DNA of 64,000 nt, from the NCBI RefSeq assembly GCF_900090315.1, contig NZ_FMHZ01000002.1:5922501-5986500 (forward strand), given 5' to 3'. The notes below the pieces were generated by a model that saw only the letters and a list, made by a program, of their open reading frames with translations, searched no databases and was not told where the DNA came from. Shown here one piece after another: positions 4,672 to 19,814 of this stretch (the first letter of the stretch is position 1; every line of letters starts with the position of its first letter). Source of the DNA: Micromonospora citrea. Its GTDB lineage: Bacteria > Actinomycetota > Actinomycetes > Mycobacteriales > Micromonosporaceae. Made by a program: the position numbers and the translations under genes.

Positions 4672-4816
4672 CGTCACCCCCGCCACGGCGTCACCCCCGC
4701 CACGGCGTCACCCCCGCCACGGCGTCACCCCCGCCACGGCGTCACCCCCGCCACGGCGTCACCCCCGCCACGGCGTCACCCCCGCCACGGCGTCACCCCC
4801 GCCACGGCGTCACCCC
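4664..4816. repeat. Nine perfect tandem copies of a 17-bp unit
   Basis: Nine identical head-to-tail copies of CGCCACGGCGTCACCCC occupy 4664-4816 without interruption. The stop codon of the F420 oxidoreductase gene (4810-4812) lies in the last copy, so the array is in the 3' untranslated region. Part of each copy equals one arm of the hairpin at 4631-4671, suggesting that replication slippage amplified the arm. Confidence 0.95.
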
Positions 4817-5820
4817 CGCAGCAGCGGCAGCACCCGGCGGCCGAGCAGGTCGACACCGCCCGCCGGGTTCAGACCGTGCGGGGTGCCGAACTCCACCCGG
4901 GTGGCCCCGGCATCGAACACCGCCGCGGCCTGCGCCGCGACGTGTTCCGGGGTGCCGGAGAAGGCGAACAGGTCGAGCAGGTCCCCGCCGATCAGCGCGC
5001 CGGCGAGGTCGTGTTCATGGCGGGCGACGTGCTGCTGGATCCGCGACAGCAGCTCCGGATCGATGTCGACGTTCGGGTCGAGGGCGGCGACCACGGCGAG
5101 GTACATGGCCACCTCCGTACGGGCCACCCGACGGGCCAGCGCGCCGTCCTCGTCCACCACGGTCACGGCGCCGAGCACCACGCCGACCTGGTCACCGGCC
5201 CGACCGGCGGGCGCGGCGTCGTCCAGCCAGGCCCGCATCGTCTTGGCCATCGCCGGGTTGGCCGAACCGCCGACCTTGATCTCCGAGGCGAACGCGGCGG
5301 CCGTCCGGGCGGTCTGCTGACCCCACGTCCCCACCAGGACGGGCACGTCGGCGCGGACCGGGGTGTAGCGCAGGGCGGTACCGGGCGCCACGGTGAACTC
5401 CCGGCCCTGGAAGCCCCCGTCGTCGCGGGACAACAGCAGCCGGACCACGTCGACGGTTTCGGTGATCCGCCGCAGCGGCCGGGCCTGCGGCACCGCGATC
5501 TGATCCAGCCAGGTGCCTCGGGCCAGCCCGAGGTAGGCCCGCCCGTTCGACGCCAGGTCCAGCGCCGCGACCTGCCCGGCGATCTCCACCGGGTGCATGG
5601 TGAACGGGTTGAGGCAGGCCGACCCGAGCCGGATCCGTCGGGTGTGCCGCGCGGCCACCAGCAGCGGGAAGAACGGCGGCTGGTACATCAGGTCACCGAA
5701 GACCGACAGCACGTCGAAGCCGTGCCTTTCGGCGAGCTCGGCCAGCGCGGCGTACTCGTCGGCGCTCTTGTCGGACTGGAGTCCGATGCCGACCAGCCGG
5801 CGTCCTTCGTCGGTGCTCAC
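4810..5820 (-). CDS. LLM-class (F420-dependent) oxidoreductase
   Basis: 336 residues from a GTG at 5820 that overlaps the upstream stop as GTGA. It shows the luciferase-like TIM-barrel pattern: VGIGLQSDKSADEYAALAEL at the N-terminus, then RIRLGSACLNPFTMHPVEIA, NGRAYLGLARGTWLD and RADVPVLVGTWG. These are typical of F420-dependent TIGR03557/TIGR03619-like enzymes; cofactor choice between F420 and FMN cannot be settled here. It is the last gene of the ten-gene operon and translationally coupled to the TIGR04076 gene. Its role in the pathway is unknown; oxidation or reduction of a late intermediate is a guess. Confidence 0.85.
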   Translation of the reverse strand: MSTDEGRRLVGIGLQSDKSADEYAALAELAERHGFDVLSVFGDLMYQPPFFPLLVAARHTRRIRLGSACLNPFTMHPVEIAGQVAALDLASNGRAYLGLARGTWLDQIAVPQARPLRRITETVDVVRLLLSRDDGGFQGREFTVAPGTALRYTPVRADVPVLVGTWGQQTARTAAAFASEIKVGGSANPAMAKTMRAWLDDAAPAGRAGDQVGVVLGAVTVVDEDGALARRVARTEVAMYLAVVAALDPNVDIDPELLSRIQQHVARHEHDLAGALIGGDLLDLFAFSGTPEHVAAQAAAVFDAGATRVEFGTPHGLNPAGGVDLLGRRVLPLLRG

Positions 5821-6143
5821 GTGAGTTCTCCAGTCGGGATCTGTCGCCGGGCGGTCCGCTCGATCCGCAGGATGACCCGCTCGTCCGGATCCGGGCAGGC
5901 CACGTGGCAGTCCCGGGCCAGCCAGTCCTCCGGCGGCAACGGACGTTGCTTGGCCGGCAGCAGCGGTAGGCACGCCGCGAGGGCGTAGAGGCAGAAGTGC
6001 CGGCCGGTGGGGATGGTGAGCCGGCTCGACTCGGTCAGGTCGATGTGGTCGCCCGGCTGGAGGCCGCAGACGGAGCGGCCCTCGATCCGTTCCACCACGA
6101 CCCGCAGGTCGTACAGGTCGGTGACCGGTTCCTCGGCGCTCAT
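5817..6143 (-). CDS. TIGR04076 family protein
   Basis: 108 residues. The pattern YDLRVVVERIEGRSVCGLQP, then HFCLYALAACLPLLPAKQR and CPDPDERVILRIERT, matches the small TIGR04076 family, of unknown function. Three conserved cysteines (in SVCG, HFCL and VACPDP) are visible and could bind metal. It overlaps the genes on both sides by 4 nt, so its expression is tied to the NTF2-like and F420 oxidoreductase genes. In other genomes, this family often sits beside metabolic operons; that alone does not give a function. Confidence 0.75.
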   Translation of the reverse strand: MSAEEPVTDLYDLRVVVERIEGRSVCGLQPGDHIDLTESSRLTIPTGRHFCLYALAACLPLLPAKQRPLPPEDWLARDCHVACPDPDERVILRIERTARRQIPTGELT

Positions 6144-6517
6144 CGAAGGGCCTCAGCGTGATGGTGCACGATCCGCCAGCCCTGTTCGTCGCGGCGCAGC
6201 ACGTCCGTCACCCGGAAACAGTCGTCCGGCTGCCCGGCCGCGTACCGGGCCCGCAGCACGTAGCGGACCAGGCCCGTGTCCTCCCACGCCTCGGCCCGGA
6301 ACTGCTCGGGGGCGACCGAGATCGGGGGCGCGGCCGGTCCCCGGGCCGCCGCCCGGCGGGACCGCAGGTCGTCCAGGGCGGCCAGGCCGTCGAGCAGGTC
6401 GGGTGCGTCGGACTCCCAGATCGTCAGGTCGGGGTGCAGCCGGACGTCGAACGCCGCCCGGTCGCCCAACGACCGGTACATGTCGGTGATGGCGGCGGTG
6501 AGATCGTCAACGGTCAT
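6140..6517 (-). CDS. NTF2/SnoaL-like (DUF4440-type) protein
   Basis: 125 residues from the ATG at 6517. It begins with helix ITDMYRSLGDRAAFDVRLHP, then DLTIWESD and ends RVTDVLRRDEQGWRIVHHHA, the standard layout of the cone-shaped NTF2-like/SnoaL fold in which the final strand reads 'W-I-H-H'. Members are either small enzymes or binding proteins; no catalytic residue can be named. It follows the DUF885 gene by 44 bp and overlaps the TIGR04076 gene by 4 nt, so it belongs to the same operon. Confidence 0.75.
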   Translation of the reverse strand: MTVDDLTAAITDMYRSLGDRAAFDVRLHPDLTIWESDAPDLLDGLAALDDLRSRRAAARGPAAPPISVAPEQFRAEAWEDTGLVRYVLRARYAAGQPDDCFRVTDVLRRDEQGWRIVHHHAEALR

Positions 6518-6561: not shown

Positions 6562-8208
6562 TCAGGAGAGTTCGGCGAGGCGGGCGCGCAGCGGATCGAG
6601 TCCCATCGGCCCGAGCCGCAGGGCCCGCTCGTGGAACCGCTTGCGGTCGAACCCGGCGCCCTCGCGGCGCTCGACCTCCCGGCGGGCCTGCTGCCACAGC
6701 CGCGCCCCGGCCTTGAAGGCCAACGCCTGCGCCGGCCAGCCGAGGTAGCGGTCGACCTCGAACCGCGCCGTCGCCGCGTCCAGTCCGGCAACCCGGACCA
6801 GGAAGTCCACGGCCAGCTCGGGGGTCCACCGGCGCGCGTCGGTGACGCCGTTCCCGGCCGGGATCGGCACGTCCAGGTGCAGGCCGAGGTCGATGACCAC
6901 CCGGGCCGCGCGCCACATCTGCCCGTCGAGCATGCCGAGCCGCTCGGCGGGGCCGGCGTAGAGGCCGAGTTCGTCGGCGAGGCGTTCGGCGTAGTGCGCC
7001 CAGCCCTCGGCGTAGCCGTGCACCTGGCACAGCGACCGCTGCCACGGGTGCAGCTCGGCGGTGGTGAGGGTGATCGCGTGCTGGAGGTGGTGCCCGGGCA
7101 GCCCCTCGTGGCAGAGCGTGCCGACGTGCCGCCACACCGGCACCGTCGACTCGCCGGGGGGCGTCGACCACCAGATCCCGCCCGGCCGGGTCAACCCGGC
7201 GTCGGGCGGGGTGTAGTACATGACGCCGGAGGCGGCGGGGCTGATCCGGCACACCACGCGGCGGGTGGCGGCCGGGATGTCGAAGTGCGCACCGTCCAGG
7301 GCGTCGGTGAGCCGCTCGGTGCGCTCGCGCAGCCACCGCTCCAGGTCGGGCCCGACCGGCACCCGGCCGGCGGGGTCGGCGTCCAGCGCGGTCCGCGCCG
7401 ACGCCACGTCCGGGTGGCCCAGCTCGGCGGCGACCGCCCGCTGCTCGGCGGCGGTGCGGGCCAGCTCCTCCCAGCCGTACGCGTACAGCTCGTCCAGGTC
7501 GACGGTCGCGCCGAGGAAGCTGCGCGCGGTGACGGCGTACAGGTCGCGGCCGACGCCGTCGACCTCGCTCGCCCGGGGCGCCAGCTCGGTACGCAGGAAC
7601 GCGGCGAAGTCCGCCGTCGCGGCGGCGGCCGAGCGGGCCCCGGCGGCCAGCTCGCCGGTCAGCGGCCCGTCCGGACACCCGGCCACCAGCCGGCCGTAGA
7701 AGTCGTCGGAGGTGACCCAGGCGGTGCACTGGTCGGCGACCGCCAGCACCTGCCGGCGGGCGACGAGCTGCCCCCGCTGGGCCGACCAGCGCAGCGTCTC
7801 GGCGTACTGGCCGAGGGCCGTGGGCACCCGGCGCAGGTGCGCGGCGAGGACCGCCCAGTCCCGCTCGCTGTCGCGTGGCAGGTTGTCGAAGACCTGCCGG
7901 ACCAGGTGCACCGGCGTCGCCAGCGGGGCGAGCAGCCGGGTGGTGAAGCCCGCGTCGTAGAGGTCGACCTCGCTGGCCAGCCGGTCGGTCAGCGCGCCGG
8001 CGAGGGCCCGCTGGGCCGTGCCGTCGACAGCGGCGCCGGCCGCCGCCGCGGCGGTGCGGCGGGCCAGCTCCGCGCGGGCGGCGAAGCCGTCGGGGGAGAG
8101 GTCCGCGAAGTGCGACTCGGGCGTACGCCCCGCCGCCTCGGCGGCCTCCGGATCCAGCCCGGCGAGCACGTCGAGGTACCTGTCGGCGACCTCGACGATC
8201 GTGGTCAT
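6562..8208 (-). CDS. DUF885 family putative zinc metallopeptidase
   Basis: 548 residues from the ATG at 8208. The motif HEGLPGHHLQ (about 367-376) is the HExxPGHH-type metal site of the DUF885 family, with a downstream EGWAHYAERL block giving a further acidic ligand. No signal peptide is seen, so it should be cytoplasmic. DUF885 proteins are thought to be metal-dependent peptidases. The start overlaps the stop of the amidohydrolase gene by 4 nt, and a dipeptide-type transporter is encoded upstream, so cleavage of imported peptides is a fitting role. Substrate unknown. Confidence 0.85.
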   Translation of the reverse strand: MTTIVEVADRYLDVLAGLDPEAAEAAGRTPESHFADLSPDGFAARAELARRTAAAAAGAAVDGTAQRALAGALTDRLASEVDLYDAGFTTRLLAPLATPVHLVRQVFDNLPRDSERDWAVLAAHLRRVPTALGQYAETLRWSAQRGQLVARRQVLAVADQCTAWVTSDDFYGRLVAGCPDGPLTGELAAGARSAAAATADFAAFLRTELAPRASEVDGVGRDLYAVTARSFLGATVDLDELYAYGWEELARTAAEQRAVAAELGHPDVASARTALDADPAGRVPVGPDLERWLRERTERLTDALDGAHFDIPAATRRVVCRISPAASGVMYYTPPDAGLTRPGGIWWSTPPGESTVPVWRHVGTLCHEGLPGHHLQHAITLTTAELHPWQRSLCQVHGYAEGWAHYAERLADELGLYAGPAERLGMLDGQMWRAARVVIDLGLHLDVPIPAGNGVTDARRWTPELAVDFLVRVAGLDAATARFEVDRYLGWPAQALAFKAGARLWQQARREVERREGAGFDRKRFHERALRLGPMGLDPLRARLAELS

Positions 8209-9443
8209 CGCGCGTCCCGCAGGCGGCCGTGGTCGTCGCGGTACGACACCCCGCCCTTGAGTACGGCGTGCAGGGTGCGCAGCGCGGACACCGAGCGGGT
8301 GGGGTCGTCGCGCAGGACCAGCAGGTCGGCGTGCTTGCCGACCTCGACGCTGCCGAGCGTGTCGGCCTGACCCAGCCACTGTGCGGGGCGGATGGTGGCG
8401 GACTTCAGCGCGTCGGCGACGGGCATCCCGGCGTCCACCATGAACTCCAGCTCCCGCACGGTGGCGGTCGTCTCGTCGTAGCCGGCGTGCGGCGGCATGT
8501 CGCTGCCCAGCGCGATCGGCACGCCGTTGCGGATGGCGTGCTGGAGGCTCTCCCAGTGCCGGGGCCCGGCCGACAGGGCGCGGTCCATCAGCCAGCCCGG
8601 CACGCCGGCGTCGCGGAAGAACTGCTCGCAGCGGCTGACCACGATGGTCGGCACGTACCAGACGCCGCGCTCGGCCATCAGCCGGGTCACCTCGTCGGTC
8701 AGCTCGTAGCCGTGCTCGACGCAGTCCAGGCCGAGTTCCACGGCACGGCGCACCGACTCGGCCGGGCCGGCGTGCGCGGTGACCTTGCGGCCCCAGTCGT
8801 GCGCCACCCGGATGACGGCCGCCAGCTCGTCGTCGAGCAGTTGGGGGGTGTCGATCGACTCGAACTCGCCGGCGATGCCGCCGGAGATGCACACCTTGAT
8901 CAGGTCGGCGCCGGCGCGGATCTGCTGCCGGGTGAGCCGGCGGAACCCGTCCGCCCCGTCGGCCTCCAGGGCGTCGGCCTCCCAGCCGTGCCCGCCGGTG
9001 CAGCAGAGGGCGTGCCCGGCGGTGAAGATCCGTGGGCCGTCCACCGCGCCGCGCTCGATGCCCTTGCGCAGGGCGAAGTCGGCGTAGCGGCTCTCGCCGA
9101 CGAGCCGGGCGGTGGTGACCCCGGAGTGCAGGGTCCGGCGCGCCGAGTCGGCCATCAGCAGCACCAGCTCGGCCAGGTTCGACCGGTGCACCTCGTCGCC
9201 GAAGTGGCCGGGCAGCCCGAGCGAGAGGTGCACGTGCATGTTGGTCAGGCCGGGCATGACGTGGTCGCCGTGCAGGTCGACCACCCGGGCGTCGCCCGCC
9301 TCGGTGAGGACGTCGTCGACCGGCCCGACGGCGCGGATCGTGCCGTCGGCGCCGACCCAGATGCCCTGGTCGCGCTGGAGGTCGTCCCGGACGCCGTCGT
9401 AGAGCGCGAGGTTGACCAGGACCTGTTCGGTGGGGATGTGCAT
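8205..9443 (-). CDS. COG1228-type amidohydrolase (possible prolidase)
   Basis: 412 residues. It is a metal-dependent amidohydrolase: HVH at 70-72 following VMPGLTNM, a lysine in LIKVCISGG, histidines in VTAHAG and CVEHGYEL, and the aspartate in ALGSDMPPH. This is the imidazolonepropionase-like COG1228 branch, which includes characterised Xaa-Pro dipeptidases as well as deaminases and imidazolonases. Being between a peptide ABC transporter and a DUF885 peptidase favours peptide cleavage over ring opening. It lies 10 bp after the DppF-like gene. Prolidase activity is inferred, not shown. Confidence 0.85.
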   Translation of the reverse strand: MHIPTEQVLVNLALYDGVRDDLQRDQGIWVGADGTIRAVGPVDDVLTEAGDARVVDLHGDHVMPGLTNMHVHLSLGLPGHFGDEVHRSNLAELVLLMADSARRTLHSGVTTARLVGESRYADFALRKGIERGAVDGPRIFTAGHALCCTGGHGWEADALEADGADGFRRLTRQQIRAGADLIKVCISGGIAGEFESIDTPQLLDDELAAVIRVAHDWGRKVTAHAGPAESVRRAVELGLDCVEHGYELTDEVTRLMAERGVWYVPTIVVSRCEQFFRDAGVPGWLMDRALSAGPRHWESLQHAIRNGVPIALGSDMPPHAGYDETTATVRELEFMVDAGMPVADALKSATIRPAQWLGQADTLGSVEVGKHADLLVLRDDPTRSVSALRTLHAVLKGGVSYRDDHGRLRDAR

Positions 9444-9453
9444 GCGGAGTCCT

Positions 9454-10437
9454 CTACGCGGCGGGCACGGTGGTCGGCGCCACCGTGGGGTCGTTGAGCC
9501 AGCAGGCGGCGGTGCGGCCGCCGAGGTCGAGCGTGGGCGGCTGCTCGCCGCACGGCGCGAAGGCGTGCGGGCAGCGCGGCCGGAAGCGGCATCCGACCGG
9601 CGCGCTCGCCGGGTCGGGCACCTCCCCGGCGAGCGTCCTGGGCAGCTGCGGCTGCGCCGAGATCTGCGGCACCGCGTCGATCAGCGCCCGGCTGTACGGG
9701 TGCCGGGGTGCGCGCCACAGCTCGCGGGTGGGCGCGGTCTCGACGATGCGGCCCAGGTACATCACGGCCGTGACGTCGGCGATCTCGTGTACCAGGGAGA
9801 GGTCGTGCGAGATGAACAGCATGCCCATGTCCAGGTCCCGGACCAGCCCGACGAGCAGGTTGACCACCTGCGCCTGGGAGGAGGCGTCCAGCGCGGTGAC
9901 CGGCTCGTCCGCGATGATCATCCGGGGTTCCGGCGCCAGCGCCCGGGCGATGGCGAGCCGCTGCCGCTGGCCGCCGGAGAACTGGTGCGGGTACCGCTCC
10001 GCGGCCCCGGCCGGCATGCCGACCCGGTCCAGCAGGTCGGCGACCCTCGCCCGGCGGGCGGCGCCGGTCACCGTGTCCGGCACCCCGTCGAGGAGCTGGG
10101 CGCCGATGGTGCGCCGGGGGTTCAGCGACGCGTACGGATTCTGGAAGACCATCTGGAGCCCGACCTCCGGCAGCGGCCGGCGCCGCCAGCCGAGCGGGGT
10201 GATCGGGCGGCCGGCGAACCGGATCGTCCCGGCGCTCGGCGCGGCCAGCCCGACCGCCACCCGGGCCAGCGACGACTTGCCGCAGCCGGACTCGCCGACC
10301 AGGCCGACGATCTGGCCGGGCGCCACCTCCAGGCTCACCCCGGCCACGGCCCGGACCGGCCCCCGGCCGCGCGGCTTGTACTCGACCTCGACGTCGCTGA
10401 TCTCGAGCAGGTTGCCCGACCCGACCGGCTCGTTCAT
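9454..10437 (-). CDS. Peptide ABC transporter ATP-binding protein (DppF/OppF-like)
   Basis: 327 residues from the ATG at 10437. Walker A GESGCGKS (48-55), Q-loop FQNPYASLNPRRT, signature FSGGQRQRLAIARALA, Walker B MIIADEPV and the C-terminal oligopeptide/dipeptide block with CRFRPRCPHA and a later cysteine are all present. It is the second of two ATPases expected for an Opp/Dpp-type importer and overlaps the first by 4 nt. It acts on the cytoplasmic face with the permeases encoded upstream. Confidence 0.93.
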   Translation of the reverse strand: MNEPVGSGNLLEISDVEVEYKPRGRGPVRAVAGVSLEVAPGQIVGLVGESGCGKSSLARVAVGLAAPSAGTIRFAGRPITPLGWRRRPLPEVGLQMVFQNPYASLNPRRTIGAQLLDGVPDTVTGAARRARVADLLDRVGMPAGAAERYPHQFSGGQRQRLAIARALAPEPRMIIADEPVTALDASSQAQVVNLLVGLVRDLDMGMLFISHDLSLVHEIADVTAVMYLGRIVETAPTRELWRAPRHPYSRALIDAVPQISAQPQLPRTLAGEVPDPASAPVGCRFRPRCPHAFAPCGEQPPTLDLGGRTAACWLNDPTVAPTTVPAA

Positions 10438-11411
10438 GCCGCCACCTCCAGGTGCGGACGGACCACGCAGGCCACCGACCGGTCGGTGCCGGCGGGGGAC
10501 AGCGGGGGAGGCGCGGTGCCGCAGGACGGCTCGGCGTACCCGCACCGGGGTTGGAACGGACATCCGGGCGGGGCCTGCCCCGGCGCGGGCGGCCCGCCCG
10601 GGATGGGACGCAGCGTGCCGACGGACTGGGTGCCGTGCGGGCGGGCGCCGAGCAGCGCGGCCGTGTACGGGTGGCGCGGCGCGGTGAGCAGCGCCCCGGT
10701 GGGGCCGGTCTCCACCACGCGCCCGGCGTAGAAGACGTAGCCGCGGGTGGTGAGTGCGCTGAGCACCCCGAGGTCGTGGGTGATGAACGCGACGGCCAGC
10801 CCGGTCTCGGCGCGCAACTGCTCCAGCAGCGCCAGGATGCCGGCCTGCACCGTCACGTCGAGCGCGGTGGTCGGCTCGTCGGCGATCAGCAGCCGGGGGC
10901 GGGCGGCGAGGGCGATCGCGATGGCGGCCCGCTGCCGCATGCCGCCGGAGAACTGGTGCGGGTACGCCCGTACCGCCCGCTGCGGGTCGGGGATGCGGAC
11001 CTGCTCGAGCAGCTCCACCGCCCGCCGGTCGGCCGCCCGCCGGTCCAGGCCCAGGTGGACCTGCATGTGTTCGGTGAGCTGCCGGCCGATCGTGAGCATC
11101 GGGTGCAGCGCGGCGGTGGGGTCCTGGAAGACCATCGCGATGCCGGCGCCGCGTACCTTCTGCCAGCGCTTCGTGTCCAGGCCGAGCAGCTCGGTGCCGG
11201 CGAAGCGGGCCGACCCGGTGACCTTGGCGCCGGCGGGCAGCAGCCCGAGCAGGGTCTGCGCGGTGAGGCTCTTGCCGCACCCGCTCTCCCCGGCGATGCC
11301 GACCATCTCGCCCTCGTCGACGGTGAACGACACGTCGTGCAGGATCGGCAGCGGCCCCGTGGGGCCGGGCAGGGTGACGGCCAGGGAGTCGACCTCGAGC
11401 AGGGGTGCCAT
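10434..11411 (-). CDS. Peptide ABC transporter ATP-binding protein (DppD/OppD-like)
   Basis: 325 residues. Walker A GESGCGKS (41-48), Q-loop FQDPTAALHPMLTIG, signature FSGGMRQRAAIAIALA, Walker B LLIADEPTTALD and a C-terminal cysteine-containing block (GCPFQPRCGYAEPSC) identify the OppD/DppD subfamily. It pairs with the DppF-like ATPase whose gene overlaps its end. Only 3 bp separate it from the DppC-like permease gene. The set predicts import of di/oligopeptides or peptide-like compounds driven by ATP. Confidence 0.93.
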   Translation of the reverse strand: MAPLLEVDSLAVTLPGPTGPLPILHDVSFTVDEGEMVGIAGESGCGKSLTAQTLLGLLPAGAKVTGSARFAGTELLGLDTKRWQKVRGAGIAMVFQDPTAALHPMLTIGRQLTEHMQVHLGLDRRAADRRAVELLEQVRIPDPQRAVRAYPHQFSGGMRQRAAIAIALAARPRLLIADEPTTALDVTVQAGILALLEQLRAETGLAVAFITHDLGVLSALTTRGYVFYAGRVVETGPTGALLTAPRHPYTAALLGARPHGTQSVGTLRPIPGGPPAPGQAPPGCPFQPRCGYAEPSCGTAPPPLSPAGTDRSVACVVRPHLEVAA

Positions 11412-11414
11412 CTC

Positions 11415-12332
11415 TCAACGTCCCTTCGCGTAGCGGGGGTCGATCCGGTCGCGCAGGGCGTCGCCGAGCACGTTGAAGGCCATCACCACGGTGAGGATGG
11501 CCAGACCGGGGAACACGCTGACCCACCACATGGAGAGGTCCTGCGAGCCGAGCGCCACCATCGAGCCCCACTCGGCGGCCGGCGGGCGGGGGCCGAGGCC
11601 GAGGAAGGACAGCGCCGACAGCAGCAGCACGGCGTTGCCGAGTTCCAGGGTGGCCAGCACGATGGCCGGGCCCACGCTGTTGGGCAGGACGTCGCGGCGC
11701 AGCGCGCGCAGCGGCCCGATGCCGAGCAGCCGGGCGGCGCTGAGGTAGTCCTCGCCGCGCATGGTCAGCACGGCGCTGCGGATGACCCGGGCGTAGACCG
11801 GCCAGGACACGATGACCAGCGCGAGGACGGCGTTGCGGGTGCTGGGCCCGAACGCGGCGGTCACCGCCATCGCCAGGATGATCTGCGGGAACGCGAAGAC
11901 CAGGTCCGTCAGGCGCATCAGCGCCTCGTCGACGAACCGGCCCACGTAGCCTGCGACCAGGCCGAGCAGGCCGCCGATCAGCAGGGCGAGCGAGACGATG
12001 GCGAGCGCGAGCGGGATCGACAGGCGGGCGCCGTGGACCACCCGGCTAAACACGTCCCGGCCGAGGGAGTCGGTGCCGAACCAGTGCGTGCCCGACGGCG
12101 GGGCATACGCGTCCGGGCTCTGTGCCAACGGGTCGTACGGCGCGACGACCGGGGCGAACAGCGCCACCAGCAGCCACCCGCCGAGGATGACCAGGGCCGC
12201 CACGGCGATCGGCTGCCGCCAGATGGGCCGCCCCGTGGAGCGACCGCGCAGCCGGCCCAGGAACCGGCGTCGAGCCAGCGCGTCGGTCGCCTTCGGGTCG
12301 GGCGCCACGGGATCGGGTGCGAGTGTGGTCAT
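11415..12332 (-). CDS. Peptide ABC transporter permease (DppC-like)
   Basis: 305 residues from the ATG at 12332. After a proline-rich cytoplasmic start it has a first membrane helix (AVAALVILGGWLLVALFAPV), the OppC_N-type PSGTHWFGTDSLGRDVFSR block and five further helices. The EAA loop with GIGPLRALRRDVLPNS contacts the ATPases. Its start overlaps the DppB-like stop as ATGA. Length and layout are normal for the family. Confidence 0.92.
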   Translation of the reverse strand: MTTLAPDPVAPDPKATDALARRRFLGRLRGRSTGRPIWRQPIAVAALVILGGWLLVALFAPVVAPYDPLAQSPDAYAPPSGTHWFGTDSLGRDVFSRVVHGARLSIPLALAIVSLALLIGGLLGLVAGYVGRFVDEALMRLTDLVFAFPQIILAMAVTAAFGPSTRNAVLALVIVSWPVYARVIRSAVLTMRGEDYLSAARLLGIGPLRALRRDVLPNSVGPAIVLATLELGNAVLLLSALSFLGLGPRPPAAEWGSMVALGSQDLSMWWVSVFPGLAILTVVMAFNVLGDALRDRIDPRYAKGR

Positions 12333-13417
12333 GACAGCCGGATCCTCGGGTCGATGAGCCCGTACAGCAGGTCGACGGCGAGGTTGACCAGCGTGTAGAC
12401 CAGCGCCACGAACAGGCTGACGCCGAGGATCGCGGGCAGGTCCAGCGCCGTCGCGCTGCGGTACGCGTACTGGCCGAGGCCCGGCCAGCCGAAGATGTTC
12501 TCCACCAGCACCGTGCCGGAGAGCAGCGAGGCGAAGGCCAGACCGGAGACGGTGATCACCGGGACCAGCCCGGCCCTCAACAGGTGCCGGCGGAACACCA
12601 CCCGGGCGGGCAGGCCCTTGGCGTACGCGGCCCGGATGTAGTCCTGCTGGAGCACCTCCAGCATCGACGAGCGGACGAACCGGACGAGCATCGCCACGGT
12701 CAGGCTGGTCAGCACGAGCACCGGCAGGACCAGGTGCTGGGCGGCGTCCCAGGCGACGTCCCACTGGCCGGCGAGGGCGGCGTCGACGGTGTACATCCCG
12801 GTCACCGTCGGCGGCGGGCTGAAGTCGGTCGACAGCCGTCCGCCGCTGGGCGCCAGGCCGAGCTGGTAGAAGAACACGTAGAGCACGACGAGCGACAGCC
12901 AGAACGGCGGGGTGGACAGGCCGAGCAGCGCGCCGACGCGGATCAGCTGGTCGGTGATCCGGCCGTTGCGGACGGCGGCGAGCATGCCGATCCCGGTGCC
13001 GATCAGCAGCGCCAGCACCATGGTGGGGATGGCCAGTTCCATGGTGGCCGGCACGTACTGCAACAGGTCGTCGGTCACGGTGCGGCCGGTCTGCTGGGAG
13101 ATGCCGAGGTCGCCCGTCAGCAGGTTGCCCAGGTACTGGAGGTACTGCACGTACAGCGGCTGGTCCAGGCCCCACTTCTCGCGGAACGCGGCCACCGTCG
13201 CGGGGTCGTTGAGCGCCTGGTCGGAGAGGTTGGCCGTGACCGGGTCGCCGGGCACCACGGTGACCAGGCCGAACGTCACGATCGTGACGCCCAGCAGCAG
13301 GCCTGCCGTGATCGCCACCCGCTTGGCCAGGAACACCAGCAGCGACCGGTGCGGCCGAGGCCGGGACGCGGTCGTGGTGACCCCGCCCGGCTCGGCGTCG
13401 TCGACTGTCGTCGTCAT
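12329..13417 (-). CDS. Peptide ABC transporter permease (DppB-like)
   Basis: 362 residues with six predicted membrane helices. The N-terminal KRVAITAGLLLGVTIVTFGL and the VVPGDPVTANLSDQALNDPA block are typical of DppB/OppB subunits, as is the C-terminal ENIFGWPGLGQYAYRSA. A short N-terminal extension (about 25 residues, charged) precedes the first helix. It is 7 bp downstream of the substrate-binding protein gene. Confidence 0.92.
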   Translation of the reverse strand: MTTTVDDAEPGGVTTTASRPRPHRSLLVFLAKRVAITAGLLLGVTIVTFGLVTVVPGDPVTANLSDQALNDPATVAAFREKWGLDQPLYVQYLQYLGNLLTGDLGISQQTGRTVTDDLLQYVPATMELAIPTMVLALLIGTGIGMLAAVRNGRITDQLIRVGALLGLSTPPFWLSLVVLYVFFYQLGLAPSGGRLSTDFSPPPTVTGMYTVDAALAGQWDVAWDAAQHLVLPVLVLTSLTVAMLVRFVRSSMLEVLQQDYIRAAYAKGLPARVVFRRHLLRAGLVPVITVSGLAFASLLSGTVLVENIFGWPGLGQYAYRSATALDLPAILGVSLFVALVYTLVNLAVDLLYGLIDPRIRLS

Positions 13418-13424: not shown

Positions 13425-15032
13425 TTACTCCCGGCCGACGGCGGCCAGGTCGACCTGCCAGCCCGCGGCGGTGTAGTCGGTGCCGGTCAGGTCGCCGCTC
13501 GCCACCACGGTGGAGGAGTTGCTGGCCAGGACGATGTACGGCGAGGCGGCGTTCATCGCCCGCTGCCACTCCTGCATGGCGGTGGCCCGGGCGGCCAGGT
13601 CGAGGGTCTCGGTGACCTTCTTGCCGGCGGCCACGACGGCCGGGTCGGCCCGCTCCACCGTCCAGCCCGAGCGCAGCGCGGTGGCCTGGCCGGGGGACAT
13701 GTTGTTGATCAGCGAGTCGGCGACCGGGTAGTTCAGGCTCTGCGGGGTGAACCCGAGCGCCATCTTGCCCGTACGCATCTCGTCGAGGAACGTGGTCAGC
13801 GGCTGCGGGGTCAGCTCCAGCTTGATGCCGGCCTCGGCGGCGTCGCCCTGCACCTTCGTCGCCACCGTGCCCAGGTCGACCCCCTTGTAGGTGATGGCCG
13901 GGTAGTTGAACTTGACGGTGGGGTTGGTCAGCCCCGCCTCCGCGAGCAACGCCTTGGCCTTCGCCACGTCACGCTTGGACTGCTCGGAGGCCGGCAGCGC
14001 GCCCGGGTAGGCGGGGGCCACCAGCCCGGCGCCGGGGGCGGCGCCCTTGCCGTACAGCCCGGCGATGCCCTCGTAGTCGATGGCGGCGCGCAGCGCCTGG
14101 TTGAACTTCGCGTTCGAGGTCACCGGAGAGACGGCCGGGTCGGCGTTGAGGAAGAGGAAGTAGACGGTGTCCTGCATGGCGGAGGTCTTCAGGCTGCCCG
14201 GCAGCCCTTCCAGCAACTTGCCGGAGATGTCCAGCGCGATCTCGGAGCCGCCGGCCCGCTGCATGGTCAGCTTCTGGGTCTGCACGTCCATGTTGCGCAG
14301 CACGACCCGGCCGAACTCTGGCTTGGTGCCCCAGTAGTTGGGGTTGGCCTCCAGCACCACCTGCGCCGACGGGTCGTACGACTTGAGCACGTACGGGCCG
14401 CTGCCGATGGAGTTCTTGTCGAGGTACTGCTGCGCGGTGTCGCTCTTCGCGGCGTCGGCGGCGTCCGTCGCGCCGTTCTCCTTGGCGACCTTGGAGTTGA
14501 CCACGCCGGTCGAGGGCATCGCGAGGACCACGGGGATGTTCGGGTCGGCGGTCGCCGAGGTGACCACCACGGTCCGCTCGTCGGTCTTGGCGACCGTGAG
14601 GCCGCTGACCATGACCGCCGGGCTGGCCTTGACGTTCTTCAGCCGGTTGAGGGAGAAGACCACGTCGTCGGCGGTCAGCGGGCTGCCGTCGGAGAACTTC
14701 ACCCCCTCGCGGAGCTTGAAGGTGAAGGTCTTCGCGTCGGCGGAGGCCTCGTACGACTCGGCCAGCGCCGGGACGGGCTTGCTGACGTCCGAGCCCTTGA
14801 AGGTCAGCAGGGTGTCGTAGAGGGAGTGCACGGCGGTGAGGCCGGTCGCCTCGTAGATCCGGCCGGGGTCGAGCGTCTTGAGGACGAACGAGGTGTTGAT
14901 GGTGAGGGTCTTGGCCGTACCACCGTTACCGTTTCCTCCGCTGCCGCCCGCGCTGCACGCGGTGCTGGAGGCTGTGACCAGCGCCGCCAGAGCGATTGCT
15001 CCGACGCGGAGCCGGCGAGGGGACACCGACAT
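13425..15032 (-). CDS. Peptide ABC transporter substrate-binding lipoprotein (SBP family 5)
   Basis: 535 residues from the ATG at 15032. The N-terminus has basic residues, a hydrophobic stretch and a lipobox ending TASSTAC, with Cys26 as the lipidation site, then a Gly/Asn-rich linker. The body is a family 5 peptide/nickel-binding protein: GVKFSDGSPLTADDVVFSLN, the IGSGPYVLKSYDP block and EANPNYWG are all characteristic. It would be anchored outside the membrane and deliver ligand to DppBC. It is the first gene of the minus-strand operon, divergent from the XRE-cupin regulator. Confidence 0.93.
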   Translation of the reverse strand: MSVSPRRLRVGAIALAALVTASSTACSAGGSGGNGNGGTAKTLTINTSFVLKTLDPGRIYEATGLTAVHSLYDTLLTFKGSDVSKPVPALAESYEASADAKTFTFKLREGVKFSDGSPLTADDVVFSLNRLKNVKASPAVMVSGLTVAKTDERTVVVTSATADPNIPVVLAMPSTGVVNSKVAKENGATDAADAAKSDTAQQYLDKNSIGSGPYVLKSYDPSAQVVLEANPNYWGTKPEFGRVVLRNMDVQTQKLTMQRAGGSEIALDISGKLLEGLPGSLKTSAMQDTVYFLFLNADPAVSPVTSNAKFNQALRAAIDYEGIAGLYGKGAAPGAGLVAPAYPGALPASEQSKRDVAKAKALLAEAGLTNPTVKFNYPAITYKGVDLGTVATKVQGDAAEAGIKLELTPQPLTTFLDEMRTGKMALGFTPQSLNYPVADSLINNMSPGQATALRSGWTVERADPAVVAAGKKVTETLDLAARATAMQEWQRAMNAASPYIVLASNSSTVVASGDLTGTDYTAAGWQVDLAAVGRE

Positions 15033-15224: not shown

Positions 15225-15273
15225 TGTCTAGTTACGCCAAACACGTTCGCCTTGTGTTTGACCATGCTAGACA
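15225..15273. promoter_or_regulatory. Nested palindromic operator between the two catabolic operons
   Basis: A perfect two-layer dyad: TGTCTAG (15225-15231), six bases, CAAACAC (15238-15244), nine bases, GTGTTTG (15254-15260), six bases, CTAGACA (15267-15273). A third, degenerate half-site with the same TAG-N6-CAAACA spacing occurs at 15280-15297. The dyad overlaps the -35 box of the XRE gene. Binding by the XRE-cupin regulator encoded next door is inferred. Confidence 0.8.
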
Positions 15274-15285
15274 GGGGCGTATAGT
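15258..15285 (+). promoter_or_regulatory. Promoter of the XRE-cupin operon
   Basis: TTGACC (15258-15263) and TATAGT (15280-15285) are separated by 16 bp and point to a start near 15292, about 40 bases before the ATG. The -35 box lies inside the nested dyad. On the opposite strand, TTGACG (complement of 15288-15293) and TAGCAT 18 bp on could serve the transporter operon. Confidence 0.6.
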
Positions 15286-15332
15286 TGCGTCAAACATTTC
15301 TAGCCACACTGTTTTGGAACGAGGAAAGACGC

Positions 15333-15869
15333 ATGCTCGGTGACCAGCTCCGCGACCTGCGCCAGCAGCACTCCCTCACGCTGCGCCAGCTCGCGGCCGC
15401 GGCCGACGTCTCGCCCGCCCTGCTCAGCCAGATCGAGAACGGCGCCACAGACCCCAGCCTGGCCACCCTGCGTAAGCTCGCCAAGGTCTTCGACACCTCC
15501 ATCGCGGCGCTGTTCTCCGAGCCGGACGCCCCGCTGGTACACATCAGCCGGCCCGGCTCGCGGTCCCGGCTCGCCGCGCCCCCCGGGCAGATCGCCTATG
15601 ACCGGCTCACCCCGGGGCGGGGCGACCTGGAGGTGCTCGAAGCCGAGCTGGCGCCGGGCGACGCCAGCTCCACCGAGCCGTGGGCACACCCCTCGACCGA
15701 GTGCGCCATCGCCGTCACCGGCGAGGTGGTGGCCGAGATCGGCGGCGAGAAGTACGTGCTGAAGACCGGCGAGGCGATCACCTTCGACTCCCGGCTGCCC
15801 CACCTCTACCGCAACGCCAGCGACCAGCGGGCCCGGCTCATCATCGCGGTCACCCCGCCGACCCCCTGA
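15333..15869 (+). CDS. XRE-family regulator with cupin domain
   Basis: 178 residues. The ATG at 15333 is preceded by GAGGAAAG, a good ribosome binding site, so a possible longer frame from 15285 is not preferred. Residues 4-58 are an XRE helix-turn-helix (LRQLAAAADVSPALLSQIEN), residues about 100-175 a cupin (ECAIAVTGEVVAEIGGEKYV, LKTGEAITFDSRLPHLYRN) that probably senses a small metabolite. Regulators of this layout commonly control amino-acid or polyamine catabolism next door. It heads the plus-strand operon and faces the nested operator at 15225-15273. Confidence 0.92.
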   Translation: MLGDQLRDLRQQHSLTLRQLAAAADVSPALLSQIENGATDPSLATLRKLAKVFDTSIAALFSEPDAPLVHISRPGSRSRLAAPPGQIAYDRLTPGRGDLEVLEAELAPGDASSTEPWAHPSTECAIAVTGEVVAEIGGEKYVLKTGEAITFDSRLPHLYRNASDQRARLIIAVTPPTP

Positions 15870-15942: not shown

Positions 15943-16863
15943 GTGGACCGCGACAGCGTCGACTGGTTCGGCTACCTGCCGGCCGTCACCACCCCGTTCA
16001 CCGCCACCGGCGAGCTGGACCTCGTCGCCTGGCCCGTCCAACTGGACTGGCTCGCCGCCGAGCGGCTGCACGGGATCATCGTCGGGGGCACCACGGGCGA
16101 GTGGTTCAGTCTCAGCGAACAGGAGCGGGCCGCGCTGTTCCGGGCGGCCGCCGACCGGGTCGGCGACCGGCTCACGGTGCTCGGCGGCTGCAACGCGTAC
16201 ACCCCGGCGGAGGCCATCCGGCACGCCGAGGCCGCTCGCGACGCCGGCCTGCACGGCATCCTGCTCACCCCGCCGCCGTACGTGGTGCCCACCCGGTCGG
16301 AGATCGTGGCCTTCTACCGGACCGTCTCCGAGGCGGTCGACATCCCGCTCTGCGTCTACAACTGGCCCCGCGGCACCGGCGTCGACCTGGACGCCGACCT
16401 GCTGCTGGAGCTGAGCGCGCTGGACACCGTGGTGGCGGTGAAGAACTCCACCCCGGACTTCGGCGGATTCGTCCGTGGCCTCGTCGCCCTGCGCCACCGC
16501 GTGCGCTACTTCGGCATCCCCACCAACGAGGTGGGCATCGAGCTGATGACCACCATCGGCGGCGACGGGCTGATGGGCGCAGGCGCCGTGCTCGGCGCCG
16601 ACCACCCCGACTTCTTCCGCGCCCTGCGCGCCGGCGACCTCGACCGGGCCCGGGTCCTCGGCGCGCGCGACCGGGTGATCATGGAGGACTGGTTCGGGCC
16701 GGACTACGGCGCCAGGTTCGGCAACGCGCAGGCGATCATGAAGTACGCGCTCACCCTGCGCGGCGTGCCGGCCGGGCACGTCCGCGCGCCGCTGCTCCCG
16801 CTGACCCCCGCCGAACAGGACCGTGTCCGGGCCACCATGACCCAGCTCGACCTGCTCCCGTGA
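15943..16863 (+). CDS. DHDPS/N-acetylneuraminate-lyase family protein (possible pyrroline-hydroxycarboxylate deaminase)
   Basis: 306 residues from a GTG at 15943 with GAAAGGA upstream. The class I aldolase barrel is clear: GGTTGE (48-53), catalytic Tyr139 in VYNWPRGTG and Schiff-base Lys167 in VVAVKNSTPD. Family members include dihydrodipicolinate synthase, sugar-acid lyases and the 1-pyrroline-4-hydroxy-2-carboxylate deaminase of hydroxyproline breakdown. It is coupled (GTGA) to a DadA-like oxidoreductase and two further subunits that resemble a D-hydroxyproline dehydrogenase, so the deaminase role is the best fit. Biosynthetic DHDPS is unlikely in this context. Inference only. Confidence 0.85.
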   Translation: MDRDSVDWFGYLPAVTTPFTATGELDLVAWPVQLDWLAAERLHGIIVGGTTGEWFSLSEQERAALFRAAADRVGDRLTVLGGCNAYTPAEAIRHAEAARDAGLHGILLTPPPYVVPTRSEIVAFYRTVSEAVDIPLCVYNWPRGTGVDLDADLLLELSALDTVVAVKNSTPDFGGFVRGLVALRHRVRYFGIPTNEVGIELMTTIGGDGLMGAGAVLGADHPDFFRALRAGDLDRARVLGARDRVIMEDWFGPDYGARFGNAQAIMKYALTLRGVPAGHVRAPLLPLTPAEQDRVRATMTQLDLLP

Positions 16864-18047
16864 CCGCGTACGACACCGCCGTCATCGGCGGCGGCCTGCT
16901 CGGCTGCGCGACCGCCTGGCACCTGGCCCGCGCCGGCAGCCGGGTCCTGCTCGTCGAGAAGGACCAGGTCAACCGGCACGCCTCCGGGCAGAACGCGGGC
17001 AGCCTGCACTTCCAGCTGGAGTTCCGGATGGTCGAGCACGGCGACGACGCGGCCCGCGCGGCGGCCCGCGCGCTCCCGCTGCACCTCGACGCCATGCGGG
17101 CCTGGGCCGGCATCGAGGACGAGCTCGGCGAGCGGTGCGGGGTCTCCCGCACCGGCGGACTGATGCTCGCCGAGACCCCGGCGGAGATCGCCGTGCTCGA
17201 CCGGAAGGCCGCCCTGGAACGCGAGTACGGCCTCGACGTCGCCGTGCTCTCCGGCCCGGAGCTGCGCCGGTTCGCGCCGTACCTGGCGGACACCGTGCTC
17301 GCCGCCGGCCACGTGCCCGGCGAGGGCAAGGCCAACCCCCGGCTGGTCACCCCGGCGCTGGCCCGGGCCGCCGGACGGCACGGCGCCGTGCTGCGCACCG
17401 GCTGCCGGGTCACCGGGCTGCACCGGCGCGGCCGGCACTGGGAGCTGCGCACCGGGACCGGCCCGGGGGACACCGCCGGGGAGACCCACCTCGCCGACAC
17501 GGTGGTGCTCGCGGGCGGGGTGTGGACCGCGGAGCTGGCCGCGATGGCCGACGTGCGGCTGCCGGTCTTCCCGGTCGGGCTGACGATGAGCGCCACCGCC
17601 CGCAGCCGGCCGTTCCTGCCGCACCTGATCCAGCACGTCGGCCGGCGGCTGTCGATGAAGCAGACCGAGGACGGCAACGTGCTGATCGGTGGCGGCTGGC
17701 CGGCCAAGCTGGTCAGCCGGGCTGGACAGGTCGACCTGGAGACCAACCCGGAGTTGCGGTACGAGTCGCTGGTCGGCAACGCCGACGCCGCCCGGGTGGT
17801 TCCGGCGGTGTTCGACCTGCCGGTGATCCGGACGTGGACGGGCATGACCACGCTCACCCCGGACCACCTGCCGTTGCTCGGCGCGATCCCGCGCCGGCCC
17901 GGACTGTTCGTCGCCACCGGCGGCTCGGCCTTCACCCTCGGCCTCACCTACGCCCGGCTCCTCGCCGGCATGGTCGTGACCGGCGAGACCGACCGGTCGA
18001 TCGAGGACTACTCACCCTTCCGCTTCGGAGCGCTGAACTTTGTCTGA
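16860..18047 (+). CDS. DadA/glycine-oxidase-like FAD-dependent oxidoreductase
   Basis: 395 residues from a GTG at 16860. The N-terminus YDTAVIGGGLLGCATAWHLA is the FAD-binding Rossmann motif, and the C-terminal GMTTLTPDHLPLLGAIP plus TGGSAFTLGLTYARLLAG complete the DAO fold. It resembles the small FAD subunit of heteromeric D-hydroxyproline/proline dehydrogenases and opine oxidases. The next two genes encode the matching [2Fe-2S] and large FAD subunits. Electrons would pass to the respiratory chain rather than oxygen. Exact substrate not determined. Confidence 0.88.
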   Translation: MTAYDTAVIGGGLLGCATAWHLARAGSRVLLVEKDQVNRHASGQNAGSLHFQLEFRMVEHGDDAARAAARALPLHLDAMRAWAGIEDELGERCGVSRTGGLMLAETPAEIAVLDRKAALEREYGLDVAVLSGPELRRFAPYLADTVLAAGHVPGEGKANPRLVTPALARAAGRHGAVLRTGCRVTGLHRRGRHWELRTGTGPGDTAGETHLADTVVLAGGVWTAELAAMADVRLPVFPVGLTMSATARSRPFLPHLIQHVGRRLSMKQTEDGNVLIGGGWPAKLVSRAGQVDLETNPELRYESLVGNADAARVVPAVFDLPVIRTWTGMTTLTPDHLPLLGAIPRRPGLFVATGGSAFTLGLTYARLLAGMVVTGETDRSIEDYSPFRFGALNFV

Positions 18048-18351
18048 ACACCGCCCGTCGAGCCCTCCGGACACGCCGAGGCGCACCCCGATGGGCCGAC
18101 CCGAGCCGGTCACCATCGAGGTGGACGGCCGGACCGTTCCCGCCCACCCGGGCGAGTCGCTGGCCACCGCGTTGCTCGCCGCCGGTGAGCGGTCCGTCGG
18201 CACCACGCGCGGCGGTGCCCGCCGGGCGCCCTACTGCAACATGGGGATCTGCTTCGAGTGCGTCGTGACGGTGGACGGCGTGCCCTGCCAGCGTTCCTGC
18301 CTGATCCGGGTGCGGGCCGGCATGCGGGTCCGCACGGCGGTGCCCCGGTGA
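18040..18351 (+). CDS. [2Fe-2S] HcnA/SoxA-like subunit of an amino-acid dehydrogenase
   Basis: 103 residues from a TTG at 18040 that overlaps the upstream stop by 8 nt; an ATG at 18091 would also leave the whole domain. A small ferredoxin-like domain: VTIEVDGRTVPAHPGESLAT, then cysteines in APYCNMGICFECVVTVDG and VPCQRSCL, the C-x4-C-x2-C...C pattern of the HcnA/OoxA-type subunits. It would carry electrons between the two FAD subunits encoded on each side. Confidence 0.85.
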   Translation: MSEHRPSSPPDTPRRTPMGRPEPVTIEVDGRTVPAHPGESLATALLAAGERSVGTTRGGARRAPYCNMGICFECVVTVDGVPCQRSCLIRVRAGMRVRTAVPR

Positions 18352-19814
18352 GCGCGCCCGACGTGGTGGTGGTCGGCGCCGGCCCGGCCGGGCTGGCCGC
18401 CGCCGCCACCCTCGGCCGGCACGGCGCCGCCGTCACCGTCGTCGACGAGCAGGAGCAGCCGGGCGGGCAGATCTACCGCCAACCGCCGGCCGGGTTCACC
18501 CCGCCGGCCGGATCGTCCTCCGCCGGTCGGGCGCTCCTGGCCGAGGCCACCGCCGCTCCCGGGGTCCGGTGGCTCGCCGACACCACGGTGTGGGGCGTCC
18601 TCGGCACCCGGGCCGGCCTCGACGGGTACGCCGGCGACCAGCCCCCGCCGGGCCGCTACCGGGTCGCCACGCACGGCCCGACCGGGGTGCGCCTGCTCGA
18701 ACCCCGGGCGGTGCTGCTCACGGCCGGCGCGTACGACCTGCCGGTGCCGTTTCCGGGCTGGACCCTGCCGGGAGTGCTCACGGCGGGCGGTGTGCAGACG
18801 TTCGTCAAGGCACAGGGCCTGCTGCCGGGCGGCCGGTTCGTGCTGGCCGGGGGCCACCCGCTGCTGCTGGTCGTGGCCGCCCAACTGGTGCGGGCCGGCG
18901 CCCGGGTGGCCGAGGTCGCGCTGGTCCAGCGCCGCCGCGACCTCCTGCCCGGACCGGCCGGGCTGGCCGCCGTGGCGGGCGCGGGAGGCAAGATCGCCGA
19001 GGGCGTCGACGCGCTGCGCGTCCTACACCGGGCGGGCGTGCCCGTCCGGTTCGGCACGGTGGTCCGCCGCGCCGCCGGCGACCCGGACCTGACCACGGTG
19101 ACCCTCGCCGAGGTCGGCCCCACCGGGCTGCCGGTGCCCGGGACCGACCGGGACGTTCCCTGCGACGTGCTGGCGTTGGGGTACGGCTTCGTCCCCTCCG
19201 TCGAGCTGGCCCGGCAGGCCGGGTGCGCGGTGACCTGGGATTCCCCCGCAGGCGGCTGGGTGGTCCGGCACGACGAGTGGCTGCGTACCTCGGTGCCGCG
19301 GATCGCGGTGGCCGGCGAGTTGACCGGCGTCGCGGGCGCCGAGCAGGCGGCGGTCGAGGGCCGGCTGGCCGCCCTCGGCGTGCTGCGCGACCTGGGGCTG
19401 CTCGACGAGCACCGAGCCGTCACGCTGGCCCGCCCGGTCCGCCGGGAACTGCGCCGCCGGCGACGCTTCGTCACACAGGTGCTCGACCGGTTCGCGCCGG
19501 ACCGGGCGGCCCTGGGCAGCCTGGTCACCGACGACACCGTGATCTGCCGGTGCGAGGAGGTGCGGGCCGGCGACGTGCGCCGCGCGCTGCGGGTCAATCC
19601 GCACCTCGGCACCGCGAACGCCGTGAAGCTGGTGACCCGCGCCGGGATGGGCCTGTGCCAGGGGCGGTCCTGCCAGCCGGGCCTCTGCCAGCTCATCTCC
19701 ACGCTGACCGGCCGAGGGCCGGAACAGGTCGGCGCGTTCACCGCTCAGGCGCCGGTCAAGCCCGTCCCCCTGCGCGCCCTCGCGGTCGGCGACAGACCGC
19801 CCGCCGCGGACTGA
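18348..19814 (+). CDS. HcnB/OoxA-like FAD/NAD-binding subunit of an amino-acid dehydrogenase
   Basis: 488 residues from a GTG at 18348. N-terminal dinucleotide fold (VVVGAGPAGLAAAATLGRHG), a second nucleotide-binding region (GGRFVLAGGHPLLLVVAAQL) and a C-terminal BFD-type [2Fe-2S] domain with cysteines in VICRCEEV and GLCQGRSCQPGLC. This domain set is that of HcnB, opine oxidase A and the large subunit of D-hydroxyproline/proline dehydrogenases. It is the last gene of the plus-strand operon and is coupled to the [2Fe-2S] gene by a 4-nt overlap. Confidence 0.88.
   Translation: MSAPDVVVVGAGPAGLAAAATLGRHGAAVTVVDEQEQPGGQIYRQPPAGFTPPAGSSSAGRALLAEATAAPGVRWLADTTVWGVLGTRAGLDGYAGDQPPPGRYRVATHGPTGVRLLEPRAVLLTAGAYDLPVPFPGWTLPGVLTAGGVQTFVKAQGLLPGGRFVLAGGHPLLLVVAAQLVRAGARVAEVALVQRRRDLLPGPAGLAAVAGAGGKIAEGVDALRVLHRAGVPVRFGTVVRRAAGDPDLTTVTLAEVGPTGLPVPGTDRDVPCDVLALGYGFVPSVELARQAGCAVTWDSPAGGWVVRHDEWLRTSVPRIAVAGELTGVAGAEQAAVEGRLAALGVLRDLGLLDEHRAVTLARPVRRELRRRRRFVTQVLDRFAPDRAALGSLVTDDTVICRCEEVRAGDVRRALRVNPHLGTANAVKLVTRAGMGLCQGRSCQPGLCQLISTLTGRGPEQVGAFTAQAPVKPVPLRALAVGDRPPAAD

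Follow-up and report, generated by a model that had tools for sequence, protein, structure and literature searches.

The divergent cluster of 15 open reading frames at positions 4810-19814 of a 64,000-nucleotide (nt) window of the Micromonospora citrea genome (7.2 Mb) raises the question of which compound its products might take up and oxidise, and of whether its two operons belong to one system. A sequence-only reading, with the same gene positions, had seen in it the uptake and oxidation of Xaa-(hydroxy)proline peptides through a core of D-hydroxyproline breakdown. Our best explanation, whose chances as a whole we put at about even, is that two modules, one for import and cutting and the other for oxidation, would work under one shared operator. 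Sequence comparison establishes the gene content, the conservation of the core, the exchange of modules around it, the operator-like repeats and the distinctness from the hydroxyproline operon of the same genome; the catalytic steps, the regulator binding and the substrate are what we infer.

The core consists of four plus-strand genes, which code for a Schiff-base enzyme of the dihydrodipicolinate synthase (DHDPS) family (15943-16863) and for the three subunits of a flavin dehydrogenase. The beta subunit (16860-18047) is of the D-amino-acid oxidase (DAO) type and binds flavin adenine dinucleotide (FAD) by family (PF01266, 218.1 bits; GxGxxG at 10, RTW at 324), the gamma subunit (18091-18351) is a [2Fe-2S] protein (Fer2_4, 93.8 bits; Cx4Cx2Cx12C at 49) and the alpha subunit (18348-19814) is an HcnB/SoxA-like flavoprotein with a BFD [2Fe-2S] domain (Pyr_redox_2 and Fer2_BFD; GxGxxG at 10, CxC...CxxxxC from 400). 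The cofactor motifs listed in PMC4575208 (GxGxxG, RxW and Cx4Cx2Cx12C) are kept in the three subunits, and the CxC...Cx4C spacing of the alpha subunit exceeds the 15-20 given there.

In order to follow the core in other bacteria, a 19-row profile of the beta subunit was used in one scan of the genome collection. It found a relative at 113 places, and the best 80 of these 113, together with three plasmid loci, form the 83 core loci (L019-L101) on which the neighbourhood counts are based. Because the sequence of many loci stops within 10 kb of the core, the presence counts are lower bounds. Three more loci (L016-L018) were scanned, 86 in all, and stand outside those counts. Among the 86, a DHDPS-like gene lies near the beta subunit in 82, a gamma subunit in 83 and an alpha subunit in 82. 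The hosts belong to at least three phyla, including Actinomycetota, Pseudomonadota and Bacillota; the nearest named relatives of the M. citrea beta subunit are from Micromonospora (best identity 96%), and beta subunits of the core are commonly annotated as sarcosine oxidase or FAD oxidoreductase. Titles and abstract starts, in a coverage outside which most subscription journals fall, gave no description of this cluster, and nothing found in this way assigns a substrate to the four-gene core. Several clusters of neighbouring genes were dropped, being shadow frames of other genes without a Pfam match.

The ten genes of the minus strand begin with a peptide-type solute-binding protein (13425-15032; PF00496, SBP_bac_5, 249.4 bits), lipoprotein-like at its N-terminus by eye, whose closest solved chains are peptide- and dipeptide-binding proteins. 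It is followed by the DppB-like (12329-13417; PF00528) and DppC-like (11415-12332; PF00528, BPD_transp_1, with OppC_N) permeases and the DppD-like (10434-11411) and DppF-like (9454-10437) ATPases, both with PF00005 (ABC_tran) and PF08352 (oligo_HPY), so that all the parts of a Dpp-type peptide importer of the ATP-binding cassette (ABC) class were found. Then come a COG1228 amidohydrolase of the dipeptidase/carboxypeptidase type (8205-9443; PF01979, Amidohydro_1, 138.5 bits) and a DUF885 protein (6562-8208; PF05960, 443.5 bits; solved relative 3iuk, 407.9 bits), which looks like a metal hydrolase by eye, with its HEGLPGH motif. The amidohydrolase carries HVH at 70, DLIK at 180, AHA, EHG and GSD, which we take to be its metal ligands. 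The last three genes code for an NTF2/SnoaL-like small protein (6140-6517; PF13474, SnoaL_3/DUF4440, 38.4 bits), a TIGR04076 family protein (5817-6143; 62.2 bits in NCBIfam, cut-off 33) and a Mer-like LLM-class (F420/FMN) oxidoreductase (4810-5820; PF00296, 143.4 bits; best NCBIfam match PRK02271, 153.7 bits, under the cut-off of 276). The AlphaFold2 (AF2) model of the TIGR04076 protein has a mean confidence (pLDDT) of 91.2 and found no match in the PDB at E<=0.001; a 34-row alignment of this family has invariant Cys and His residues. Titles and abstract starts on TIGR04076 and DUF885 held nothing bearing on this cluster.

The Pfam and NCBIfam searches upheld the family assignments of all 15 genes, and the divergent arrangement and tight spacing described earlier also stood. 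Among the 13 adjacent pairs (nine on the minus and four on the plus strand) there are seven 4-nt overlaps (LLM/TIGR04076, TIGR04076/NTF2, DUF885/amidohydrolase, DppF/DppD, DppC/DppB, DHDPS/beta and gamma/alpha) and six gaps of 3-73 nt (DppD/DppC 3, DppB/solute-binding protein 7, amidohydrolase/DppF 10, beta/gamma 43, NTF2/DUF885 44 and regulator/DHDPS 73), with start codons that we picked among the candidates. Gene sets like this one recur in other genera and therefore the cluster is not a chance assembly.

Regarding its regulation, the first plus-strand gene codes for an XRE-cupin protein (15333-15869; HTH_3 and Cupin_2; PuuR-like, 74.6 bits, under the cut-off of 211), and the two divergent starts are 300 nt apart. 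The region between them holds two face-to-face promoter-like sites, the sole ones in 16 kb (0.2 expected), and three copies of GTnTAGnnnyGnCAAACA overlap both of them, at 15226-15243 (plus), 15255-15272 (minus) and 15279-15296 (plus). Over the whole window the loose form of the motif is at chance level (9 against 7.3 expected), and the three copies with 0-1 mismatches are all in the intergenic region. With up to three mismatches, the motif stands upstream of the XRE gene in 8/8 core loci of Micromonosporaceae (the window and L022-L028) and in 9/9 relatives that have the minus-strand operon without the core. It was found in 18 of 42 XRE loci, at 2.07 per kb against 0.12 elsewhere, and is mostly absent outside the Micromonosporaceae. 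The XRE-cupin protein probably controls both operons by binding at this putative triple operator.

Around the core, modules are exchanged. The amidohydrolase is near 38 of the 83 core loci, DUF885 near 36 and both near 30, and peptidases of unrelated families (COG1228, DUF885, M14, M20, M24) adjoin the core. As importers we found Dpp permeases in 22 loci, SSF carriers in 23 and NhaC carriers in 13, and no locus with two kinds; in L076, beside NhaC, there are matches to DppD/DppF-like ATPases and an amidohydrolase at the cut edge. The relation between importer and hydrolase was tested on the 64 loci whose flanks reach 8 kb or more on both sides of the core. A hydrolase was present in 19/19 Dpp loci versus 22/45 of the others (Fisher 3.4e-5), and tree-based pairing kept this link (5.6 to 0 of 7 pairs, median p 0.031, range 0.031-0.125). 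By contrast, only one of the 10 NhaC loci, L076, had a hydrolase, versus 40/54 of the others (2.3e-4; only 3 independent pairs, p 0.25). Since Dpp loci have a hydrolase and NhaC loci mostly lack it, a monomer seems to be what the core acts on, imported as such by some hosts and in peptide form by others. In 15 comparison loci that lack the core (L010-L014, L102-L111), no match was obtained with the amidohydrolase, DUF885, NTF2-like and TIGR04076 exemplars.

The smaller helper genes are exchanged as well. RidA is near 40 of the 83 loci, VOC near 38, an NTF2-like gene near 13 and LLM together with TIGR04076 in 3. RidA never occurs with NTF2 or LLM in this set, where short flanks may hide more; NTF2 and LLM are together in the window and in nine relatives without the core. 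RidA also follows an annotated opine oxidase, and its presence beside both this enzyme and the core suggests that the product of the core dehydrogenase is an imine.

The minus-strand operon is a module separate from the core. In 151 Micromonospora genomes, TIGR04076 homologues (E<=1e-30) are present in 49 and the core in 7, M. citrea included. We inspected nine genomes that have a TIGR04076 protein of 77-88% identity and lack the core (L128-L136 with the upstream stretches L143-L151), and all of them have the operon from the solute-binding protein to LLM together with the divergent XRE gene. In 6/9, a gene for an Xaa-Pro dipeptidyl-peptidase lies directly behind XRE, in the place of the core. 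Peptidase_S15 was found in the three of these proteins that were scanned, and the other three are 93-96% identical to one of them (717 bits in NCBIfam, cut-off 642); judged by eye from the N-terminus, the enzyme looks secreted. The remaining three genomes have an orthologue of 80-83% elsewhere. Thus an orthologue of at least 80% is present in 9/9 genomes without the core versus 0/7 core genomes tested, three of the latter having just a paralogue of 45-46%. Other genera of Micromonosporaceae have the import operon and the core together. Because the relatives without the core pair the same regulator and operon with an Xaa-Pro dipeptidyl-peptidase, imported peptides of Xaa-Pro type are favoured, and this pairing is the strongest hint to them that the sequences give.

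Several observations weigh against a proline-like monomer set free from such peptides. The dipeptidyl-peptidase neighbours are from one genus and from related species. In 3/3 amidohydrolases searched, the proline dipeptidases 3mkv and 3feq score under 2qs8 and 3mtw, and the amidohydrolase is closer by score to hydrophobic/basic carboxypeptidases and ochratoxin hydrolases than to these two proline dipeptidases (specificities as given in PMC11342369 and PMC11511702). With the Xaa-Pro dipeptidase model NF051886 it reached 252.1 bits, under the cut-off of 500. These scores speak against reading the amidohydrolase as a prolidase. Finally, genes of aromatic-degradation type lie beside the core in several Pseudomonadota, a minority of the loci, and genes of PF04199 type are near 10 of the 83; a proline substrate leaves these neighbours unexplained. 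They were assigned by scanning exemplars and placing the remainder by blast clusters, and include salicylyl-CoA 5-hydroxylase type, gentisate dioxygenase-like, indolepyruvate oxidoreductase, PF04199 cyclase and MarR genes, in the stretches 13854-21057 of L077, 12895-21161 of L037, 1-5388 of L048 and 2943-7382 of L093.

These points lead to the alternative that the monomer is not an imino acid and is instead an aromatic, hydrophobic or basic amino acid, or an opine-like secondary amine, set free from peptides or N-acyl conjugates. The amidohydrolase relatives and the aromatic-type neighbours would fit it, as would two tryptophans, W54 and W141, which are invariant or nearly so in the DHDPS-like proteins of the core. 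However, no such aromatic gene is among the 15 of the window, proline is indicated by the M24 prolidase-like and S15 Xaa-Pro peptidases, and the only opine oxidase in the tree stands apart from the core. We consider this alternative somewhat unlikely.

A further point concerns the hydroxyproline epimerase. As had been noted, the window has none, but the genome does have one: the sole PF05544 racemase/epimerase match is at C2:193568-194536, in a separate hydroxyproline-type operon (L010 5797-14149, within G000:C2:186001-206000). The epimerase gene is accompanied there by those for a GntR-like regulator, a DHDPS-like enzyme, an aldehyde dehydrogenase and an M24 peptidase, and for subunits of DAO-type, [2Fe-2S] and HcnB-like kind; the regulator, the aldehyde dehydrogenase and the peptidase were named by eye and the four core paralogues by blast. 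The operon matches the L-hydroxyproline operon SCO6289-SCO6293 of Streptomyces coelicolor as described in PMC6608401 (the pathway is also treated in PMC4113996). In the same stretch there is a collagenase-like frame, by eye from its translation, at L010 18855-19979. The identities between the paralogues of the two operons are 30% for DHDPS, 30% for beta, 46% for gamma and 39% for alpha. The separate operon and the low identity mean that the window holds a paralogous set and does not supply an absent part of a hydroxyproline pathway.

Nevertheless, the epimerase of the other operon could supply the core with D-hydroxyproline, for which the core would then provide a second dehydrogenase and deaminase; its subunit architecture is that of SCO6289-SCO6293 (PMC6608401). 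Co-occurrence also goes against our own explanation: a full-length epimerase is present in 6/7 core genomes of Micromonospora versus 28/151 of all (Fisher 1.5e-4, among close kin), and in Actinomycetota in 9/25 core-bearing genomes versus 46/296 in the phylum (p 0.02). Yet among the 50 core genomes searched, a subset of those behind the 80 loci of the scan, PF05544 reached its cut-off in 26 and was near full-length in 24, so that 26/50 are without a full-length epimerase. Three Catellatospora genomes have no PF05544 epimerase at all and a cluster that, within 10-kb flanks, closely resembles that of the window. The epimerase adjoins only 1/83 core loci, and 2/83 have nearby an aldehyde dehydrogenase similar to the one in the hydroxyproline operon. 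On present counts, then, the epimerase is enriched among core genomes and is not required.

The tree and the DHDPS-like enzyme speak against this alternative too. In a 55-row tree the beta subunit of the window is inside a clade of 27 rows (support 96/98), and four epimerase-linked beta subunits form a separate clade (100/100); there are several long branches and the deeper order is unsure. The single annotated OoxB row, on a long branch, lies elsewhere, so that the beta subunit groups neither with the epimerase-linked subunits nor with this opine oxidase. Grouping with opine dehydrogenases, which would have refuted the sequence-only reading, was thus not seen for the one OoxB in the tree. The Schiff-base lysine K167 and the tyrosine Y139 are kept in 80 DHDPS-like proteins of the core, with the signature YNWP[RP]G and VK[NQ]ST versus YNNP and VKEF[ST] in three epimerase-linked enzymes, which have other residues at W54 and W141. 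Therefore, the D-hydroxyproline route suggested at first finds no support for this core, and its survival as a second such route appears quite unlikely to us.

Two other lines gave no functional pointer. In the PDB the second-best match of the beta subunit was 1y56_B (77.6 bits), which is not diagnostic because the beta subunit of the hydroxyproline operon matches it as well (88.0 bits), and the ranking was dropped. The 50 entries listed by the fold search with the DHDPS-like model are DHDPS, YagE, MosA or NAL-type enzymes with close Z, and thus the fold tells no function. The Gene Ontology term 'glyoxylate catabolic process' was rejected as evidence; the plasmid annotation puts it on every DHDPS-family gene inspected. 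DHDPS-like genes also occur in other settings, in operons with a long FAD oxidoreductase, an amino-acid ABC transporter, dihydropyrimidinase and DUF3830 (L106 3336-9749, L107 2327-8768), and with DAO-type genes near the glycine cleavage genes gcvPA/gcvPB (L108, L110).

That the two operons are unrelated and head to head by chance is very unlikely: the minus-strand operon does occur without the core in Micromonospora (by the 49/151 and 7/151 counts and the nine operons inspected), but the linkage of Dpp and amidohydrolase with the core is also seen, in different gene orders, in other families (for example Leifsonia, Microbacterium, Agromyces), and one set of operator-like repeats and overlapping promoter-like sites lies between the two operons of the window.

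In the two-module explanation, both modules would share the divergent operator and the XRE-cupin protein would govern them. The Dpp-like transporter would import Xaa-Pro-type dipeptides, the COG1228 amidohydrolase and the DUF885 protein would cut them, and the alpha-beta-gamma dehydrogenase, with FAD, flavin mononucleotide (FMN) and [2Fe-2S] centres, would oxidise one of the released amino acids at its C-N bond. The DHDPS-family enzyme would then form a Schiff base with the imine or 2-oxo product and may split, dehydrate or deaminate it to a central metabolite. Pyrroline-type imines are substrates of some LLM reductases. The NTF2-like protein and the LLM and TIGR04076 pair (RidA and VOC in other hosts) may serve a helper step, perhaps imine handling. 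The earlier proposal that peptides are taken up and hydrolysed before an imine-forming oxidation thus gains support from the Dpp-hydrolase link, the dipeptidyl-peptidase relatives and the kept cofactor motifs.

What the monomer is can be narrowed further. A DHDPS-type lyase requires an imine or 2-oxo acid with a hydroxyl or leaving group further down, so that proline itself does not fit, and we favour an imino acid that carries a hydroxyl group or another gamma substituent and is used independently of a PF05544 epimerase. NhaC-family carriers of amino acids exist. More tentatively, and with a low probability for the full proposal, the core could break down a hydroxylated L-imino acid, such as L-hydroxyproline or another isomer, by a route that bypasses the epimerase. 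The dehydrogenase would attack the L-form directly, hence needing no epimerase, and the two-tryptophan DHDPS lyase would cleave the product. It would be a plug-in of at least three phyla, combined with NhaC or SSF monomer importers or with peptide importers and peptidases, and in Micromonospora one regulator would govern either this core or, in its stead, a secreted Xaa-Pro dipeptidyl-peptidase.

Should the link to peptides prove true, it would explain how some bacteria with this core use a peptide-bound imino acid without the known epimerase, and would give a functional context to DUF885, TIGR04076 and the NTF2-like family. The module exchange also predicts that hosts of minimal NhaC-type loci grow on the free monomer and hosts of Dpp-type loci on its dipeptides.

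At the borders of the cluster, a perfect 17-bp tandem repeat (4658-4819, 9.5 copies, 100%) overlaps the LLM gene at its final codons. Of 152 loci, only L125, which is from the same genome, contains a 27-base stretch of this repeat, and two relatives showed no comparable array at about this position. Immediately after the alpha-subunit gene lies a C-terminal fragment of a Mutator-family transposase (19882-20139), and a reading frame at 1321-1896, whose HTH_32 match is below the threshold, may be what is left of a transposase gene.

Regarding the known systems, the COG1228 dipeptidases and carboxypeptidases (2qs8, 3mtw, 3mkv, 3feq) and the ochratoxin amidohydrolases share family and motifs with the window protein, although it is below the NF051886 cut-off (252 of 500) of the Xaa-Pro dipeptidases. 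With the opine dehydrogenases OdhABC/Oox/Nox (PMC4575208), the core has the alpha-beta-gamma subunits and the Arg-X-Trp motif in common, and RidA is beside OoxA in one Ti plasmid as it is beside many core loci; the differences are that the 6.1-kb OoxA stretch of that plasmid has no DHDPS-like gene and that OoxB, one row on a long branch, is apart in the tree. The archaeal PH1363/PH1364, called L-proline dehydrogenase (L-ProDH) in PMC4364671, is a distant relative in sequence: chain A of 1y56 is named PH1363, and chain B, by inference PH1364, matches the beta subunit. SCO6289-SCO6293 and the LhpABEFC system of Pseudomonas (PMC6608401) also have a DHDPS-family enzyme with beta, gamma and alpha FAD-[2Fe-2S] subunits. 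Unlike them, the cluster of the window has no epimerase, carries an XRE-cupin instead of a GntR regulator and has peptide import and hydrolases attached, and both its beta subunit and its DHDPS-like enzyme differ from those of the epimerase-linked clusters. The sequence-only reading had allowed for a variant or a new pathway, and the cluster appears as a variant of the known pathways that combine an imine-forming alpha-beta-gamma dehydrogenase with a DHDPS-family enzyme.

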